This document shows positions 5,731 through 37,059 of a DNA stretch of 64,000 bases, piece after piece. Made by a program: the position numbers and the translations under genes. Each line of letters opens with the position of its first letter. Position 1 is the stretch's first letter. The stretch is from Pseudomonas sp. 31-12 (GTDB lineage Bacteria > Pseudomonadota > Gammaproteobacteria > Pseudomonadales > Pseudomonadaceae), in NCBI RefSeq assembly GCF_003151075.1, contig NZ_CP029482.1, forward strand, positions 5,580,001-5,644,000. Reading direction: 5' to 3'. Below the pieces are notes generated by a model. The model made no database searches and was not told the DNA's origin. It saw only the letters and a list, made by a program, of their open reading frames with translations.

Positions 5731-5825
5731 CCCTGTGGGAGCGGGCTTGCCCGCGATAGCGGTGTATCAGAAAAGTAGATAGCGACTGATACGCCACCAT
5801 CGCGGGCAAGCCCGCTCCCACAGGG
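5731..5825. repeat. REP inverted pair, GTGGGAGCGGG family
   Basis: The left arm GTGGGAGCGGGCTTGCCCGC is mirrored by its complement ending GCTCCCACAGGG, with a ~40-base spacer. This is the second REP family in the window, distinct from the GTGGCGAGGG family. Confidence 0.9.
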
Positions 5826-29165: not shown

Positions 29166-30671
29166 TCACCACTGCAGCGAGGGGACGCGGACGGGTTCTT
29201 TGATAACGATAAAGCCGTAATCCCCCAGCAGATAAATGCGATAGAACAGGCTGTCCACCAGCGGTGGATAACCCTGGTATCCCACTCGCGTGGCGTTGCG
29301 CCGTTCCTTTTCCCTGACCACATTGGTAATGCCTGCCTTGGGCAGGTTTTCCGCGAGCATGTAAAAGTCGGTGTTCAGCAGGTAATGCAAAACCGGCATC
29401 TGCTTGAACGACCCGGCTGCGCTCACCAGCCAGTGATCCGAATACGTCACCGACATATAAATACGCTTGGCGTCGCGCAATGCCGGGCGCGAAGCGATGT
29501 CGGCACTCAAGGCATACAGCGCATTCGTCGCGAAGGTTTTTTGTAACGTCAGCACACGTCCATAAGCAAAGGACAGCGAGAGCATCGCCAACAGCGGAAC
29601 CAGCAACAGCAACGGCAGTTTTCCATGCACCGACGCCAACGCCCGATGGCTCAGGTAGAACAGCAGCACCAGCACCACAGCAAAACCCATCAAGGTGCGG
29701 GCGCCTTCATTGAAGTCGCGGAAAAACAACGAGGCCCCCGGCACCAGCACCATCAGGACAGGCAAGAGCAAAAGACACAGCAGGCCGATGGTAGTTTTTT
29801 CCAGGCCTGTGTCCGCACGCTCCACCACACGCTGCCCCACGCACACGGCACCGGCGACGGCGCACAGCAAAAGCGCGGCGAACACCCAGGCAAAGCCGCC
29901 ATGGAACAGCAGCACGATTTTTTCCAGCACTCGGCCCGCATTGATTTCAACTTGCAGCAGCGGCGTCGCTGCCCAATTCAACAACGAGGTACGGCTCTGA
30001 TTCATGAAGGAATAGGCGGTGGCGTAATAGATCAACCCGGCCAGACCTATTTGAACGACTTTGCAGCCGATCAAGCGCCACCACGCGGGCCATGCCAATT
30101 TGTCGCTCGCCCCCCGCAGCAACTCCAGGCAACAGAGCCCGAGAAACACATTGAAGCTGACCTGATAAAGCCCGATGGCCAAGGCAATCAGCGCGGCGGG
30201 TATCAGCAGTTGCTGGACGCGCGAGGGGCTTTGAAACGTGATCGCGTAGATCACCGCCACCAGGCTCAGGGCCATGGTCGGTCCGTCGTATTGGTACGAC
30301 AGGTTTTGCAGGAAAAACGGGTTGTACCAAAGCGGCAGCAGCACCAGGCAATGGGCAAACGTCGGTTCGGGGAAGTAGTGAAATGTCAGCCGGGTCAGGG
30401 CCCAACTCATTGCCAGCGTGGCGATCAACAGCGGCAACGGGAAGATATTCGGCGCGGCACCGCTGAAAGTCAGCAGGTTGTAGAACCATTGCGCGAACAG
30501 CCGGCCCTCCTGCGCCCAGCCGGTACCGGCGGCCAGGGCACGCCAGTTGTCATCGATGTAGGGGAAATCCGCGAGGAGCAGCGGCAGGACGTAAATCAGC
30601 GTCGCAAAAAGAAATATCAACCCGACCTGACGGCCTGTGAGCTCTTTGTCGAGCCATTCGCTGATCTTCAT
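29166..30671 (-). CDS. multi-pass glucosyltransferase (Gtr type II-like)
   Basis: The 501-residue protein has about ten to eleven hydrophobic helices and a GT-C-type acidic motif early on (FPYIDDNWRALAAG, about 35-48). This architecture is that of O-antigen glucosyltransferases that use polyprenyl-phosphate-glucose at the periplasmic face. The GtrA gene downstream supports that role. The two genes probably form a short surface-polysaccharide modification operon. Acceptor and linkage are unknown. Confidence 0.78.
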   Translation of the reverse strand: MKISEWLDKELTGRQVGLIFLFATLIYVLPLLLADFPYIDDNWRALAAGTGWAQEGRLFAQWFYNLLTFSGAAPNIFPLPLLIATLAMSWALTRLTFHYFPEPTFAHCLVLLPLWYNPFFLQNLSYQYDGPTMALSLVAVIYAITFQSPSRVQQLLIPAALIALAIGLYQVSFNVFLGLCCLELLRGASDKLAWPAWWRLIGCKVVQIGLAGLIYYATAYSFMNQSRTSLLNWAATPLLQVEINAGRVLEKIVLLFHGGFAWVFAALLLCAVAGAVCVGQRVVERADTGLEKTTIGLLCLLLLPVLMVLVPGASLFFRDFNEGARTLMGFAVVLVLLFYLSHRALASVHGKLPLLLLVPLLAMLSLSFAYGRVLTLQKTFATNALYALSADIASRPALRDAKRIYMSVTYSDHWLVSAAGSFKQMPVLHYLLNTDFYMLAENLPKAGITNVVREKERRNATRVGYQGYPPLVDSLFYRIYLLGDYGFIVIKEPVRVPSLQW

Positions 30672-30920: not shown

Positions 30921-32045
30921 ATGACGACTGAACGCGATCACCGGATCGATTTTTTCCGGGGCCTGGCGCTGATCTTCATTTTCTGGGATCACGTGCCCCA
31001 CAACCCTTTAGGTCAAATCACCCTGCGAAACGTCGGTTTCAGCGACGCCGCGGAAGTCTTCGTTTTTCTCGCCGGTTACGCGGCGGTCCTGGCCTACGGC
31101 AAGATCCTTGCGCGCGACGGTTACTTGATTGCCTGCGTGAAAATCCTGCGCCGCGCCTGGGTGCTGTATGTGGTGCATATTTTTCTGCTGGCGATGCTGA
31201 TGGGCATCGTGTTCTTCGCCAACAGCCACGTGGAGACCCGCGACCTGGTCGAGGAAATGGGCATGCACCACTTCATCAGCAACCCGCAGCAAGCCTTGAT
31301 CGATGAGTTGCTGTTGCGCTTCAAACCGAACCTGATGGACCCGCTGCCGCTCTACATCGTACTGCTGGCAGGTTTGCCGCTGGTGCTGCCGATATTCGTG
31401 CGCAAACCATGGGTGGTGGTGGCGATGTCGTTTGCGGTGTACCTGACGGTGCCGTTGTTCGGCTGGAATCTGGCCGCCATCAAGGACGGCGTGTGGTACT
31501 TCAATCCCGTCGCCTGGCAACTGTTGTTCGTACTCGGCGGTGCCGCTGCGATTCACGCGCAGCGCCCACGCTTGCCCGACAGGCGCTCATTGCTGCGCCA
31601 GCCATTGTTTGTGAGTGCGGCGTTATACGCAGGCGTTGCCGGTGTACTGACCGTATTGTGGCGATGGCCGCAACTGCATGATGCGGTGGTACCGACCAGC
31701 CTGAGCAACCTGTTGTACCCGATCAGCAAGACCGACCTGTCGCCGGTCCGACTCCTGCACTTTCTGGCGCTGGCGTACGTCACGGCGAAACTGTTGCCGG
31801 ACACTGGCTGGACGCAGAACTGGCTGGCGCAGCAATGCAGTCGCATGGGGCGTTATTCGCTGGAAGTGTTCTGCCTCGGGGTGTTGTTGGCGCCGTTGGC
31901 GGACATGGTCAACGCCCTGACCGACGATGCGTTTGCCATGCAAATCTTCACGGCGTTGGTGGGGGCGGGGTTGATGGGGTTGTTGGGGGTCTGGCTGGAT
32001 TTCAATAAACGCCTGACCCGGTCGGCTCACGTCGCCGCCGCGTGA
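30921..32045 (+). CDS. OpgC domain-containing membrane protein
   Basis: The 374-residue protein begins ERDHRIDFFRGLALIFIFWD, the OpgC N-terminal signature, and has about ten hydrophobic helices. OpgC proteins belong to the acyltransferase-3-like group and succinylate osmoregulated periplasmic glucans. The frame is open to 30852, but the signature and family start place the ATG at 30921. A glycan-modifying role fits the divergent glucosyltransferase and GtrA genes. A lone REP copy follows the stop. Confidence 0.88.
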   Translation: MTTERDHRIDFFRGLALIFIFWDHVPHNPLGQITLRNVGFSDAAEVFVFLAGYAAVLAYGKILARDGYLIACVKILRRAWVLYVVHIFLLAMLMGIVFFANSHVETRDLVEEMGMHHFISNPQQALIDELLLRFKPNLMDPLPLYIVLLAGLPLVLPIFVRKPWVVVAMSFAVYLTVPLFGWNLAAIKDGVWYFNPVAWQLLFVLGGAAAIHAQRPRLPDRRSLLRQPLFVSAALYAGVAGVLTVLWRWPQLHDAVVPTSLSNLLYPISKTDLSPVRLLHFLALAYVTAKLLPDTGWTQNWLAQQCSRMGRYSLEVFCLGVLLAPLADMVNALTDDAFAMQIFTALVGAGLMGLLGVWLDFNKRLTRSAHVAAA

Positions 32046-32062
32046 TATCGGCAAAGTAACCA

Positions 32063-32105
32063 TTGTGGCGAGGGAGCTTGCTCCCGCTGGACTGAGCAGC
32101 AGTCG
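32063..32105 (+). repeat. solitary REP copy (pair disrupted)
   Basis: GTGGCGAGGGAGCTTGCTCC is present, followed by the usual spacer-like sequence (CTGAGCAGCAGTCG). The inverted partner found in every other copy of this family here is missing. The next genes are the low-GC cassette, so the pair may have been broken when that cassette was inserted. Confidence 0.75.
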
Positions 32106-32181
32106 CCCACCAGTCGGCCCCGCTCCCGCCGCATGACCGTCTACACAAAACCGGTTACACCAGATCGAAAGTCCGACAGGC

Positions 32182-32901
32182 TTACAGCGGCAGGTTCTGC
32201 CCCGACGTAAATCGCTCGATTCTTACCTCCCCAGCGTGTTCCCTGTAGACATAGGCATATGCATCAGGAAGAGAGGCAAGGACTTGAGCGACACCTCCTT
32301 CCCAAAAGATTGCAGCGCCGTTGTCGCAGGCAATAGCCCTTACACCGGACGAGCGCACGAGTTCCTGCAGGGGGGCATGCCGCTGCTCTTTATCGAGGTG
32401 AGGACAGAAAGCACCGGGCAGAAAACCCAATGCTTCCAGCCGCGTCAGACTCCAGCTTGAGCCCGAATCAGCGGAGAATCGGTCCGAGTCACTCAGTCCT
32501 GCTTCATACCAGCAAATGGCTCCAGCGCTTAGCCCCGAAAGGATGGTGCCATTCGCTCCCGCTAGGCGCAGAGCCGTATCGATCCCAAAATCTCGCCATA
32601 TGGCGAGCATCTTTTGTGTATTCCCTCCCCCGACATAGACGAGATCGGAGTACAGGATTTTCTGCAGGACGTCTTGTTGCGTAAAGTCAGAACGCGTAGC
32701 CAGCAGGAAATCAACTTTGCAGCCCAGGCGCTCGCCATAGACGTGATGAAAAGTTTTGCAGTATCCCTCTGCATCGCCACTTGCCGTAGGGATGAAAAGG
32801 GCTTTGGGGCTGCTCTTTCCTGTTTGGTTACAGATAAACGAATCCAGATCCAGAGTTTCCAATTCAGAAATCTCACCGCCACCAATCGTTACGATTTTCA
32901 C
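32182..32901 (-). CDS. S51 (peptidase E-like) peptidase of the MccB-like cassette
   Basis: The ~239-residue class I glutamine-amidotransferase-like fold has the S51 nucleophile elbow SGLSAGAICW (Ser ~125), the VGGGNT oxyanion loop and a catalytic His (FCPHLDKE, ~168). Peptidase E cleaves after N-terminal Asp, while other S51 members are cyanophycinases. A TTG at 32907 is in frame, but GTG at 32901 lies a better distance from GAGG and yields the typical start M-K-I-V-T-I-G-G-G. It begins 12 bases after the ThiF-like gene. Low GC suggests transfer. A role in immunity or processing is inferred. Confidence 0.82.
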   Translation of the reverse strand: MKIVTIGGGEISELETLDLDSFICNQTGKSSPKALFIPTASGDAEGYCKTFHHVYGERLGCKVDFLLATRSDFTQQDVLQKILYSDLVYVGGGNTQKMLAIWRDFGIDTALRLAGANGTILSGLSAGAICWYEAGLSDSDRFSADSGSSWSLTRLEALGFLPGAFCPHLDKEQRHAPLQELVRSSGVRAIACDNGAAIFWEGGVAQVLASLPDAYAYVYREHAGEVRIERFTSGQNLPL

Positions 32902-32912
32902 GTTCAAGCACC

Positions 32913-33908
32913 TCAGTTCAAGAATGCACCGCAGCGCTCAAATGGAACCCATGACAGGCTGAGCCCACTGTTATCCCTACGCCAAGATGTGCTTTCAGGA
33001 AACCCAAGCGCGTGAATTGCAGAGGATGCAACGACACCCGCTATCTCTACATTCATTGGCCCAAAGCTGGGCCCAATAAAGTCAGGAGTTCTTGCCCACT
33101 TAACTGCTGGGAATTCATCATCTGCCTGAGATTCTGAGTTACCGAAAATTTTAACCAGAGCCTTATTCTGAAAATACCCACAAGAAATTGTCAGAAAACC
33201 ATTTCTCTGCGACAACTCTTGAAGTTTTACTTGTGCGACCCCCAACGGTTCATCAGCCGACAGTACAACCAAATCCACTCCTTGCGTTAGCTCTTCAAGG
33301 TGTTTGTCATTAACCTGTTCCATCAGCGCGCGGCAACTTCTCAAAGAATATCTTCGCTCAAGAACGACTTTAAGCACTTCGACTTTTGACCGACCAATAT
33401 CATTCCTTTCCCACAAAAACTGACGGTTAAGATTACTTGCCTCAATTGTGTCCGGGTCCACAAGGATCAGCTCCTCAATCCCTGCTCCGGCAAGCTGCAT
33501 AGCAACGAGGGAGCCAATTCCGCCACACCCGATGACTAAAACCCGGGCATTCTGAATACGATCAAACGCATTGATCAGCTCTTGGCAATTGCGGGATATG
33601 CAGCAAAAATAAGACGCGGTCCTGCTAGTTCTCTCGTCTCGTAGTAGCCTGCGTGTTGCAATGACTTGATCCTCTTCACCGAAAAGAATCGAGTTAGAAG
33701 AAACCAGAGCTTCAAACAAATTATTCTGAGAAGCAGGGTTTGGTAATTGTACAATTCCTGCCGGCCCGGCGATGTAGGCACCCCTTGCGCCATCAAGCCC
33801 TTCAACAACAGCTGGGCGCATTAAGCCAACAACTTTGTTTTGCGCGTAGACGATAGAGTCAGATACCCGCTCTTCTCCAGCGGTTAGAGATTCAAATAGA
33901 GAGTCCAT
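32913..33908 (-). CDS. MccB-like ThiF/E1 adenylating enzyme
   Basis: The 331-residue protein has an N-terminal region of ~110 residues matching in size the peptide-binding domain of MccB. An E1-like adenylation domain follows: the nucleotide loop VLVIGCGGIG (Gly127-Gly132), the acidic ILVDPDTIEASNLNRQ, the IGRSKVEVLK stretch, and VVLSADEP. A late GPSFGPMNVEIAGVVASSAI segment parallels MccB. The C-terminal zinc cysteines of MccB are absent. MccB activates a C-terminal Asn of a short peptide and links it to AMP. A peptide ORF ending in Asn lies 65 bases upstream, which supports this reading over ThiF, MoeB or UBA roles. Confidence 0.75.
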   Translation of the reverse strand: MDSLFESLTAGEERVSDSIVYAQNKVVGLMRPAVVEGLDGARGAYIAGPAGIVQLPNPASQNNLFEALVSSNSILFGEEDQVIATRRLLRDERTSRTASYFCCISRNCQELINAFDRIQNARVLVIGCGGIGSLVAMQLAGAGIEELILVDPDTIEASNLNRQFLWERNDIGRSKVEVLKVVLERRYSLRSCRALMEQVNDKHLEELTQGVDLVVLSADEPLGVAQVKLQELSQRNGFLTISCGYFQNKALVKIFGNSESQADDEFPAVKWARTPDFIGPSFGPMNVEIAGVVASSAIHALGFPESTSWRRDNSGLSLSWVPFERCGAFLN

Positions 33909-33936
33909 TCCAAATTCCCAGTGTTGCGGAGGGACA

Positions 33937-33959
33937 GACCAGCGATGTTACTGCTGATC
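33937..33959 (-). other. hairpin between peptide ORF and MccB-like gene
   Basis: On the minus strand GATCAGC and GCTGGTC form a 7-bp stem (one G-U) around a 9-base loop, with no T-run. It lies in the 65-base gap after the peptide stop. The E. coli mcc operon also has an intergenic structure that keeps precursor mRNA abundant, so a similar role is possible. Confidence 0.35.
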
Positions 33960-33973
33960 TTGTGTGGTGCAGA

Positions 33974-34207
33974 TTAGTTGCAAGCCAGAGGGTGTGGCCT
34001 CATGAAAAGCTTGCACGCCCTTGTAGCAACTATCAACTCGACTGGCTGCACTATTAGGGAAGAAGTTGAAGGAGTGGGCTTAGTAATCAAAAACTGCGCA
34101 TGTTCCTTTGCGAGATTCATGTCTACAATCACAGGCTTTTCTGTCATCGCGGCTGCGTGAGCGGAAAGAAGGAGGGTTGCCGCGAACGTTACCGATTTAA
34201 CATGCAT
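33974..34207 (-). CDS. small peptide ending in Asn, candidate microcin C-like precursor
   Basis: The 77-codon frame has AGGAG 9 bases before its ATG. The first ~20 residues look like a Sec signal (MHVKSVTFAATLLLSAHAAA). The rest is polar and ends ACKLFMRPHPLACN. All known MccB substrates end in Asn and several begin Met-Arg, such as the 7-residue E. coli MccA. A nested 9-codon frame MRPHPLACN fits that too, though it has no clear ribosome site. No relative is recognised. It could instead be an ordinary small secreted protein. The opposite-strand frame lacks these signals. Confidence 0.55.
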   Translation of the reverse strand: MHVKSVTFAATLLLSAHAAAMTEKPVIVDMNLAKEHAQFLITKPTPSTSSLIVQPVELIVATRACKLFMRPHPLACN

Positions 34208-34454
34208 ATTTTCTATCTCCTGATAGCGCGTAGTGTGTCAATGACACGTCCTTTGCGAGGCTGCCTTGCCTCGCCGTCGATGCTACGAATTCTCATTTTC
34301 ATTTGCAAACGATCAAGAGTTACGAGCCATGACCGGGCACTCCCAAAAGATTCACGAGTCTGCTCGCTACCGCAAAGCATTTTCGTTTTCTGAGAATTGC
34401 TTCCCACGCAAATCCGGCATTGGGGAACAAGTGGGGAGCAGACACCAGCCAATA
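34208..34454. other. upstream region of the peptide/MccB-like cassette
   Basis: The 247-base low-GC region has no convincing gene. On the minus strand a TTGACA (34236-34241) stands 17 bases from AGATAG, but that -10 would overlap the ribosome site. Two Fur-like hexamers GAAAAT-GAGAAT occur (34289-34300 on the complement), a weak hint of iron control. A segment reading GGGGAACAAGTGGGGAGCAG near 34422-34441 could be a relic of a mobile element border. Confidence 0.3.
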
Positions 34455-34484
34455 AAAAGCCCCGGCCAATGGACCGGGGCTTTT
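34455..34484. terminator. bidirectional rho-independent terminator
   Basis: AAAAGCCCCGG and CCGGGGCTTTT form an 11-bp stem around an 8-base loop, with A- and T-runs on both sides. It ends the minus-strand permease gene and insulates the cassette. Confidence 0.9.
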
Positions 34485-34503
34485 GCGTTTCAGGCGTTAC
34501 GAC

Positions 34504-35925
34504 TTACGAAGCCGAACTCACCGCCCCTTGCGACACGTTGGTCGGTTGCAGCTTGAACACGTAGAACAACACCGTCAGCAGCACCAGGAACGCAGGTCCC
34601 ACGTAAAGCGCCACGCGGGTTTCCGGGAAGTAGGCCATCAGGCCGACCACCAGCACCAGGAATGCCAGCGCCAGGTACGAGCTGACCGGGTACAGCCACA
34701 TCTTGTACTTCAGGCCGGCACGTTCGCTGGCACTCAAGCCTTGGCGGAACTTGAGCTGGGCCAGCAGGATCATCACCCAGGTCCAGATCGCGCCGAAGGT
34801 GGCAATCGCCGTCACCCAGACGAAGACTTTTTCCGGGACCATGTAGTTGAGCAGCACACCCAGCAACAGCACGAAGATCGACAACAGCAGCGCCCGACGT
34901 GGCACGCCGTTGTTCGAGGTCGTGGCAAAACCGGCCGGGGCCTGGCCATTCTGCGCCAGGCTGTAGAGCATGCGCCCGGTGCTGAAGATGCCGCCGTTGC
35001 AGGATGACAACGCGGCGGTGATCACCACGAAGTTGATGATGCCGGCGGCGGTCTTGATCCCCAGGCGTTCGAACGTCATCACGAACGGACTGCCTTGGGT
35101 GCCGATTTCGTTCCACGGGTAGATCGACAGGATCACAAACAACGCGCCGACGTAGAACAGCAGAATCCGCCAGAACACCGAGCCGATCGCATTGGGAATG
35201 GTCTTCTGCGGGTTCTTCGCTTCACCGGCGGTCAGGCCGATCATCTCGACGCCGAGGTAGGCGAACATCACCATTTGCAGGGACATCAGCACGCCTTGCA
35301 CGCCGTTGGGCATGAAGCCGCCGTGAGCCCAGAGATTGGAGATCCCCAGCGCCACGCCGTCGTTGCCGAAACCGAACGCGATCACGCCGATGCCGCCGAT
35401 CACCATCGCGATGATGGTGACGATCTTGATCAGGGCGAACCAGAACTCGAATTCACCGAAGGCTTTTACGGCAATCAGGTTGATCGAACCCATGCTGATC
35501 AGCGCGGCGAGTGCCCAGATCCAGCGCGGCACATCGGGGAACCAGACGCCCATGTACACCGCCACCGCGGTGATTTCCGCGACACAGGTCACCAGCCACA
35601 GGAACCAGTAATTCCAGCCAGTCAGGAAGCCCGCCAGGGGGCCGAGGTAGTCTTGGGCATAACGGCTGAAGGAGCCGGCGACCGGGTTGTGCACAGCCAT
35701 TTCGCCGAGGGCGCGCATGATCACCAGGATCGCCAGACCGCCGATGATGTAGGACAGCATGATGGCAGGACCGGCCATCTCGATGGCCTTGGCCGAACCA
35801 AGGAACAGGCCGACGCCGATACAGGCACCGAGCGCCATCAAGCGAATATGCCGTTCGCCGAGTTCGCGTTTAAGCGGGCCGCCCTGAGCGGTCTCGCCGT
35901 GAGGCAGGTGATTGCCGACTGGCAT
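34504..35925 (-). CDS. AAT-family amino acid permease (ProY/AnsP-like)
   Basis: The 473-residue protein has 12 hydrophobic helices and the AAT signature near the N-terminus: LKRELGERHIRLMALGACIG, then VGLFLGSAKAI. It also has a typical MRALGEMAVHNPVAGSFSRY segment. This subfamily imports proline, GABA, asparagine, aromatic or other amino acids by proton symport. The exact substrate is uncertain. The frame runs upstream to 36045, but 35925 has a GAGG site and the conserved start. An NtrC-like palindrome ~285 bases upstream hints at nitrogen control. Confidence 0.88.
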   Translation of the reverse strand: MPVGNHLPHGETAQGGPLKRELGERHIRLMALGACIGVGLFLGSAKAIEMAGPAIMLSYIIGGLAILVIMRALGEMAVHNPVAGSFSRYAQDYLGPLAGFLTGWNYWFLWLVTCVAEITAVAVYMGVWFPDVPRWIWALAALISMGSINLIAVKAFGEFEFWFALIKIVTIIAMVIGGIGVIAFGFGNDGVALGISNLWAHGGFMPNGVQGVLMSLQMVMFAYLGVEMIGLTAGEAKNPQKTIPNAIGSVFWRILLFYVGALFVILSIYPWNEIGTQGSPFVMTFERLGIKTAAGIINFVVITAALSSCNGGIFSTGRMLYSLAQNGQAPAGFATTSNNGVPRRALLLSIFVLLLGVLLNYMVPEKVFVWVTAIATFGAIWTWVMILLAQLKFRQGLSASERAGLKYKMWLYPVSSYLALAFLVLVVGLMAYFPETRVALYVGPAFLVLLTVLFYVFKLQPTNVSQGAVSSAS

Positions 35926-36582: not shown

Positions 36583-37059
36583 ATGCAAGGAAGCAATGGA
36601 TTGCCAACTCAACCAAACTCCCATCGCCTGCGTTTTGGCCGACATTCCGAAACCGGTCGTGCCTATCTCATCACCGCAGTCGTTCATGACCGCCAACCCC
36701 TGTTTTCTGATTGGCGAGTGGGTCGGTTGCTTGTCGCAGAGCTGCGACGAGCACACGATGCAGGGCTAGTGGACTCAATGGCTTGGGTTGTAATGCCTGA
36801 TCACTTTCATTGGCTTATGCAACTGAAAGAAAACGATCTGGGTGGTGTCGTCGGTTCCATCAAGTCACGTTGTACTCAGACATTGAACAAAATGACTGGG
36901 AGGCAGGGGCCTCTATGGCAAACCGGCTATCACGACCGTGCAATCCGTGACGGGGAAGAACTTCTTCCGTTCGCTCGTTACATTATTGCCAACCCATTGC
37001 GCGCAGGGTTGGTAGAAAAAATCGGTGATTACCCGCTCTGGGATGCCAACTGGCTATAA
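36583..37059 (+). CDS. rayT: REP-associated tyrosine transposase (RAYT)
   Basis: This is a 158-residue Y1 (IS200/IS605-like) single-strand nuclease. The metal-binding pair appears as MPDHFHWLMQ, and the catalytic Tyr lies in FARYIIANPLRAGLV. Such domesticated enzymes bind and cleave REP hairpins and drive REPIN spread. REP pairs of one subtype flank it at ~130 and ~30 bases. ATG at 36583 is given, but TTG at 36601 has AAGGAAG 7 bases upstream and may be the true start (M-P-T-Q-P-N). Confidence 0.92.
   Translation: MQGSNGLPTQPNSHRLRFGRHSETGRAYLITAVVHDRQPLFSDWRVGRLLVAELRRAHDAGLVDSMAWVVMPDHFHWLMQLKENDLGGVVGSIKSRCTQTLNKMTGRQGPLWQTGYHDRAIRDGEELLPFARYIIANPLRAGLVEKIGDYPLWDANWL

Follow-up and report, generated by a model that had tools for sequence, protein, structure and literature searches.

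A microcin C-like three-gene cassette with a signal-sequence-like precursor in Pseudomonas sp. 31-12

The locus described here lies in a 64,000-nucleotide stretch of the Pseudomonas sp. 31-12 genome (contig NZ_CP029482.1, positions 5,580,001 to 5,644,000; hereafter the window) and consists of a small peptide gene, a gene for a ThiF-fold (E1-like) enzyme and a gene for an S51 peptidase (Table 1). This set of three minus-strand genes in a low-GC block, with a peptide ending in Asn, had been proposed in a first-pass annotation as a minimal microcin C-like cassette, and open reading frame (ORF) calls, Pfam and base composition agree with that gene set. Pfam matched ThiF at 4.7e-34 (residues 115-302) and Peptidase_S51 at 3.2e-42, and the precursor peptide had no Pfam match; G+C was 0.479 in positions 33001-34000 and 0.514-0.647 in the remaining 63 kilobase bins of the window. 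MccC, MccE and MccF, reported missing in the same annotation, were likewise not found in the cassette. The S51 gene starts with TTG, and a GTG sits 6 bases further in. A Shine-Dalgarno-like AGGAGATAG lies ahead of the precursor ATG; in a promoter scan of 32000-34520, nothing promoter-like turned up ahead of that ATG.

Table 1. Features of the cassette, in window coordinates.
Feature	Position	Strand	Evidence
Segment without counterpart in the related locus L097	32019..34445	.	Flanking DNA comparison
S51 peptidase (MccG-like), 241 aa; Ser127/His170/Asp195 by alignment	32182..32907	-	Pfam, fold, alignment
MccB-like ThiF-fold nucleotidyltransferase, 331 aa	32913..33908	-	Pfam, fold match, tree, alignment
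Possible RNA hairpin in the gap between precursor and mccB-like genes	33936..33960	-	Pairing in 3 close sequences
mccA-like precursor gene, 77 aa, product ending ...LACN	33974..34207	-	ORF call, partner ORF in relatives, selection pattern
Conserved C-terminal core of precursor, codons 64-77, two Cys and terminal Asn	33977..34018	-	Alignment, substitution pattern
Signal-sequence-like segment of precursor, codons 1-21: basic start, hydrophobic core, AHAAA	34145..34207	-	Signal rule, substitution pattern

By both sequence and fold, MccB was the best solved relative of the enzyme, the match spanning almost the full length (Foldseek to 3h9j: 346 columns aligned, via model residues 26-330), and the protein has the MccB-type layout of an N-terminal peptide-binding region followed by an adenylation domain. 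The assignment to an MccB-type rather than a MoeB- or ThiF-type enzyme held up: the NCBIfam cut-offs were not reached (ThiF, 87.8 bits vs. 275; MoeB, 68.3 vs. 377), and in the tree, built without the control rows TcdA_own and ThiF_G187 (the motif filter found nothing in them), the family and eight housekeeping rows formed separate groups (support 100/100 and 100/99). PaaA, the pantocin A enzyme, links two Glu side chains. It was the next full-length fold match after MccB (PDB 5ff5), weaker by sequence and fold and with a different chemistry. R162, K175 and D219 are invariant in 21/21 family rows and align with R157, K170 and D214 of E. coli MccB, residues whose role is taken from a comparison of EnfB and MccB (PMC12250964). 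Among the best 25 of the enzyme's 33 PADLOC matches, only the E1 part of E1-E2 profiles was aligned, e.g. 328-436 of 588, and PADLOC returned nothing for the S51 protein or the peptide; identity as an E1-E2 defence protein, which requires E1 and E2 in one protein, was rejected.

Near full-length matches to the enzyme were found in 7 of 298 genus genomes (the own genome and six relatives, with two further partial matches at 1e-15), a scattered distribution, and an alignment search of 398 genus genomes returned the own genome and eight others at 1e-40. In a phylum sample, 14/398 genomes matched at 1e-25; apart from the own genome, matched over its full length, the 13 matches were confined to the ThiF part. 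The window enzyme alone, as query against the genome and viral contig collections, gave no confirmed relative; a seven-row alignment run against the genome contigs (84,980 species) gave 30 loci, 17 of the family (L029-L045) and 13 ThiF-domain loci that were excluded from the counts, a lower bound given the pattern-based scan. With duplicates entered once (L012/L039, L016/L044, L017/L045, L041/L059, L032/L060), 21 non-redundant loci were retained (the window, L029-L045, L013, L014 and L015), mostly from Pseudomonas and also from Methylophaga, Variovorax, Cupriavidus and Xylophilus. Among plasmids, 32019-34445 had no DNA match, and the 413 records matching the enzyme as protein were all below 60% identity, none covering 80% of it. 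The 21-row alignment matched 23 loci in viral contigs, all partially; the best, L107, a viral contig encoding a ThiF-like protein, showed 34% identity over residues 76-255.

Mapping of the neighbourhood across genomes recovered the same gene order, with an intact Asn-ending ORF just upstream of the enzyme, in 20/21 loci, more than chance would give and as the proposed peptide partner would have it; among background ORFs, 22/899 end in Asn. A signal-sequence-like start was present in 19/20 precursors and in 37/899 background ORFs of 60-100 aa (p = 6e-24), and the 20 distant precursors resemble one another at the N-terminus in signal-type physical properties, with no common sequence motif. A second Cys stands ahead of the terminal Cys-(x)-Asn in 19/20 precursors, and a C-x(7-16)-C-x(0-1)-N ending was found in 17/20, against 1/899 background ORFs; the Asn end and the near-terminal Cys are partly built into these counts because they were used in picking; neither the signal nor the second Cys played a part in it. 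The exceptions were L035 (off by one residue), L038 (Cys 40 apart) and L042 (one Cys), and the window precursor itself ends Cys-x10-Cys-Asn. Codons 1-21 differ from L029 and L030 by 7 and 8 synonymous changes, respectively, and by no nonsynonymous change; in codons 22-63 there were 8 and 7 synonymous and 28 nonsynonymous changes (Fisher P = 2e-4 for L029, 4e-5 for L030). This substitution pattern indicates that the precursor is under selection. Precursor lengths were 61-98 aa as mechanical ORFs, the start probably being too early in some; published MccA precursors have 7-8 or 17-56 aa (PMC6495379).

An exporter gene is part of the minimal mcc set, and the literature presents a dedicated exporter as a requirement for microcin C-like antibiotics (PMC9239234, PMC6495379). 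From the precursor through the third gene, none of the 21 loci holds a transporter gene. A scan with five query sequences over 647 ORFs, out to 6 kb, in the window, 20 relatives and 7 control loci gave only three weak ATP-binding cassette (ABC) ATPase matches near family loci, upstream of the precursor in L037 and L039 and more than 6 kb away in L045; the L037 ABC gene and its permease best matched the amino-acid import models GlnQ and GlnP, below the cut-offs of those models. ORFs with at least 4 predicted membrane segments occurred within about 4 kb in 9/21 loci, at unrelated places. Those of the window are an amino acid permease, which is part of the ancestral flank, an OpgC-like protein on the other flank, and a third ORF at 29166-30671. 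By comparison, ThiF-type plasmid regions of E. coli, H. pylori, L. plantarum, L. gasseri, P. ananatis and Priestia carry major facilitator superfamily (MFS) or ABC genes no more than two genes away (a Nonomuraea record has no annotation). As the exporter of the published minimal set was sought and not found, the locus was not filed as a canonical mcc cluster; a Sec-type signal (general secretion) on the precursor would explain the missing exporter.

The third position is exchangeable: across the 21 loci it holds a HIT hydrolase in 15, an S51 peptidase in 3 (the window, L029 and L030), a GNAT acetyltransferase domain fused to the MccB-like enzyme in one (L043, 5923-7497, Variovorax sp. IB41) and none of these in two (L038 and L042). 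The HIT hydrolases, downstream of the enzyme, carry the MccH motif ExxxxxHxHxKxx (six were aligned). Fold search as well as Pfam supported the S51 fold, and the triad was placed by alignment; one of the seven aligned S51 rows, L070, has Glu as third triad residue, and the S51 relatives looked at were stand-alone genes. In the tree the S51 trio falls together with six HIT rows at 85/95, a node not counted as firm. This placement is compatible with HIT having been replaced by S51, the direction being unproven. All three enzymes have published counterparts. For MccH the cleavage site in processed microcin C is the N-P bond, and its substrates are undecorated adenylates (PMC7157772); MccG, an S51 peptidase with a preference for cytidylates, acts at the carboxamide bond (PMC9239234); and the GNAT domain of MccE acetylates processed microcin C (PMC7157772, PMC9239234). 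Since HIT, S51 and GNAT proteins are thus all published detoxifiers of processed microcin C, the payload is probably an isoaspartyl-nucleotide. The first-pass annotation had an S51 peptidase standing in for the known immunity genes; the peptidase is there, and the idea of a novel kind of immunity was dropped, as MccG was published in that role in 2022 (PMC9239234). In the Pseudomonas relatives L038 (6016-9305) and L042 (5962-9087), the precursor-enzyme pair is followed by a 147-aa ORF that begins with a signal-like segment (in L038 it carries a frameshift) and by a gene resembling flavocytochrome c sulfide dehydrogenase; L038 has a cytochrome c-like ORF as well. The flavoprotein genes are possible periplasmic redox partners.

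In the window's lineage the cassette arrived by insertion. With the OpgC-like flank protein as query, 29 related genomes gave 11 matches at 1e-100, the own genome included. In L097, with flanking DNA 94-95% identical, nothing corresponds to window positions 32019-34445 and the two genes of the flanks adjoin; in L099, L100, L102 and L103 the permease stands beside the OpgC-like gene and the cassette is missing. In L098, L101 and L104-L106 neither permease nor cassette was present within the fetched 1.5 kb. Horizontal acquisition of the three genes forms part of the explanation we favour.

That explanation, which we judge somewhat better than even, is that the cassette makes a microcin C-like peptidyl-nucleotide exported via Sec; its proposed role is read from genes and families. 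The MccB-like enzyme would join a nucleotide, perhaps adenosine monophosphate, to the C-terminal Asn of the precursor through an N-P bond in the cytoplasm. Sec, the general export machinery, would then carry the modified precursor out post-translationally, guided by the precursor's own signal, which would replace MccC, and in the periplasm the two C-terminal Cys could close a small disulfide loop beside the nucleotide. Once released, the product would enter competitors, where proteolysis would free an isoaspartyl-nucleotide blocking aspartyl-tRNA synthetase. Payload freed in the producer would be cleaved by the S51 peptidase in the MccG role, and in relatives by MccH or GNAT likewise. Whether the family as a whole is a Sec-secreted peptidyl-nucleotide branch, with signal, terminal-Asn nucleotidylation, no pump, a disulfide loop and interchangeable HIT/S51/GNAT immunity, seems to us evenly balanced.

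The Sec-type signal, the two precursor Cys and the MccH-type HIT in most relatives go beyond the first-pass annotation. A literature search, with supplementary tables and most subscription papers outside it, found no signal-sequence or Sec-type microcin C precursor, and prior notice of a layout with Sec signal, two Cys and no exporter is possible; Pseudomonas 'putative mcc-like clusters' are named in PMC7157772, which in the sections consulted makes no mention of their precursors or exporters. If true, a general-secretion branch with Cys close to the warhead would alter the criteria for recognising such compounds in genomic data, and the lack of a pump together with the long precursor would help explain why they could be missed. 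It would also be a simple system for asking how export can still proceed once the last residue of a peptide has been modified, and three unrelated detoxifying enzymes swapped on one core are a natural test of payload identity.

Several observations weigh against a Sec-exported microcin C-like product. The enzyme is distant from MccB (20-25% identity to the E. coli protein in fold alignments), in the tree a long branch (3.17) separates the family from MccB as well as from the housekeeping enzymes, and the three rows of reference MccB did not group, leaving a special kinship with MccB unsupported; this lack of a link to MccB in the tree weakens the explanation and strengthens the macrocycle alternative below. 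The precursors were picked with the Asn end, in one step also with a Cys within two residues of the end, as filters, and the signal test was a crude author-written rule, not SignalP. The L013 precursor does not pass that rule, the L036 precursor is a broken remnant in which an in-frame stop comes after a signal-like start, L038 and L042 depart from the Cys pattern in spacing and number, and neither of the two has a known immunity gene beside the pair. The exporter scan recovered 6/7 control loci, missing the MFS gene of L019, and is therefore weak, and an exporter gene may lie elsewhere in the genome. It is also hard to see how a modified peptide of some 40-60 residues would cross the outer membrane. 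The preference of MccG for cytidylates and the action of MccH on undecorated adenylates do not point to one nucleotide, so that the swap is not trivially explained.

In one alternative the chemistry is that of microcin C, and the hydrophobic N-terminus serves as a leader that the enzyme recognises or that a cytoplasmic protease removes; export would then use a transporter encoded elsewhere in the genome, and the Sec route would be wrong. The identical protein sequence of codons 1-21 in the window, L029 and L030, arguably tighter than a plain signal needs, speaks for this, as do long signal-less precursors (two H. minutum MccA in PMC7157772 show no signal by eye). We nevertheless consider it unlikely, given the signal-type physical pattern without a motif that sets the precursors apart from background, Cys pairs fitting an oxidising compartment, and 21 cassettes in which no exporter gene was found. 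Rather less likely still is a nucleotide-free product, in which C-terminal activation by the ThiF-type enzyme is followed by capture by a nearby Cys or amide, to give a thiolactone or other macrocycle acting as signal or toxin. ThiF-like enzymes of ribosomally synthesized and post-translationally modified peptides do this (GrcB, thiolactone; EnfB, macrocyclic imide; PMC12250964), and the recurrence of two Cys near the C-terminus and the distance from MccB are in keeping with it. The recurrent terminal Asn (a search filter, yet rare in background ORFs) and a microcin C-type detoxifying enzyme in 19/21 loci fit a peptidyl-nucleotide better.

An intracellular toxin-antitoxin or abortive infection system, with triggered release of the payload and HIT, S51 or GNAT as antitoxin, appears very improbable. 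Its toxic part would act in the cytoplasm with a detoxifying gene adjoining, and the scattered distribution and insertion would suit it; a secretion-type signal is ill-suited to a retained toxin, and the PADLOC result (E1 part only, peptidase and peptide unmatched) speaks against it. That the enzyme is simply a MoeB/ThiF-type housekeeping protein, with an ORF upstream by chance and a peptidase that has nothing to do with it, has the Pfam ThiF domain on its side and is hardly credible, being already contradicted by the missed NCBIfam cut-offs, the separate tree groups and a recurring precursor under selection.

The closest known systems, besides PaaA, are mcc clusters. E. coli mccABCDEF (L061) is alike in the near full-length MccB fold with aligned catalytic residues, the Asn-ending precursor directly upstream, the hairpin between the first two genes and the presence of a self-immunity gene. 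Its precursor, however, is the heptapeptide MRTGNAN, whereas that of the window has 77 aa, a signal sequence and two Cys; the window cassette is without the MFS exporter and MccD/MccE-like decoration genes, and has S51 where E. coli has MccE/MccF. The MccG-bearing mcc clusters of Nocardia vaccinii and Mycobacteroides abscessus share an S51 peptidase with a Ser-His-Asp triad, clustered with an mccB gene (PMC9239234), but N. vaccinii differs in an MccB with a carboxymethyltransferase domain, in mccC, mccD, mccE1 and mccS, and in a 21-aa precursor (PMC9239234). Hyalangium minutum mcc is alike in the MccH-motif HIT downstream of mccB, as in 15/21 loci here, and in long precursors; it differs in ABC/HlyD/C39-type transporter genes and in its Cys-free precursors, 36 and 46 aa long (PMC7157772).

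The hairpin between the precursor and enzyme genes is a tentative feature. All eight pairs form in the window, L029 and L030, with one double and three single compatible changes; with three sequences only, the covariation was not significant in a shuffle control (155/500), and slid controls were lower. Gap folding reached z <= -2 in 17/20 loci, the window (-0.62), L030 (-0.89) and L038 (-0.97) falling short, and the gaps of L014, L035, L037 and L042, where the enzyme start set by hand is not a start codon, are off by a few bases. Rfam gave no match over 31900-34700. In the E. coli mcc cluster a terminator lies at the same place between the first two genes (PMC6495379). The 239-nt gap of L045 (precursor end near 5765, enzyme start 6001) folds very stably (z = -8.3).

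Two loci of the window's genus, L018 and L019, carry other ThiF-like genes beside MFS-like genes and apparently represent different peptide-modifying clusters. Within the window, the ORF at 36583-37059 resembles a transposase associated with repetitive extragenic palindromic (REP) elements and presumably lies among repeat-like elements.
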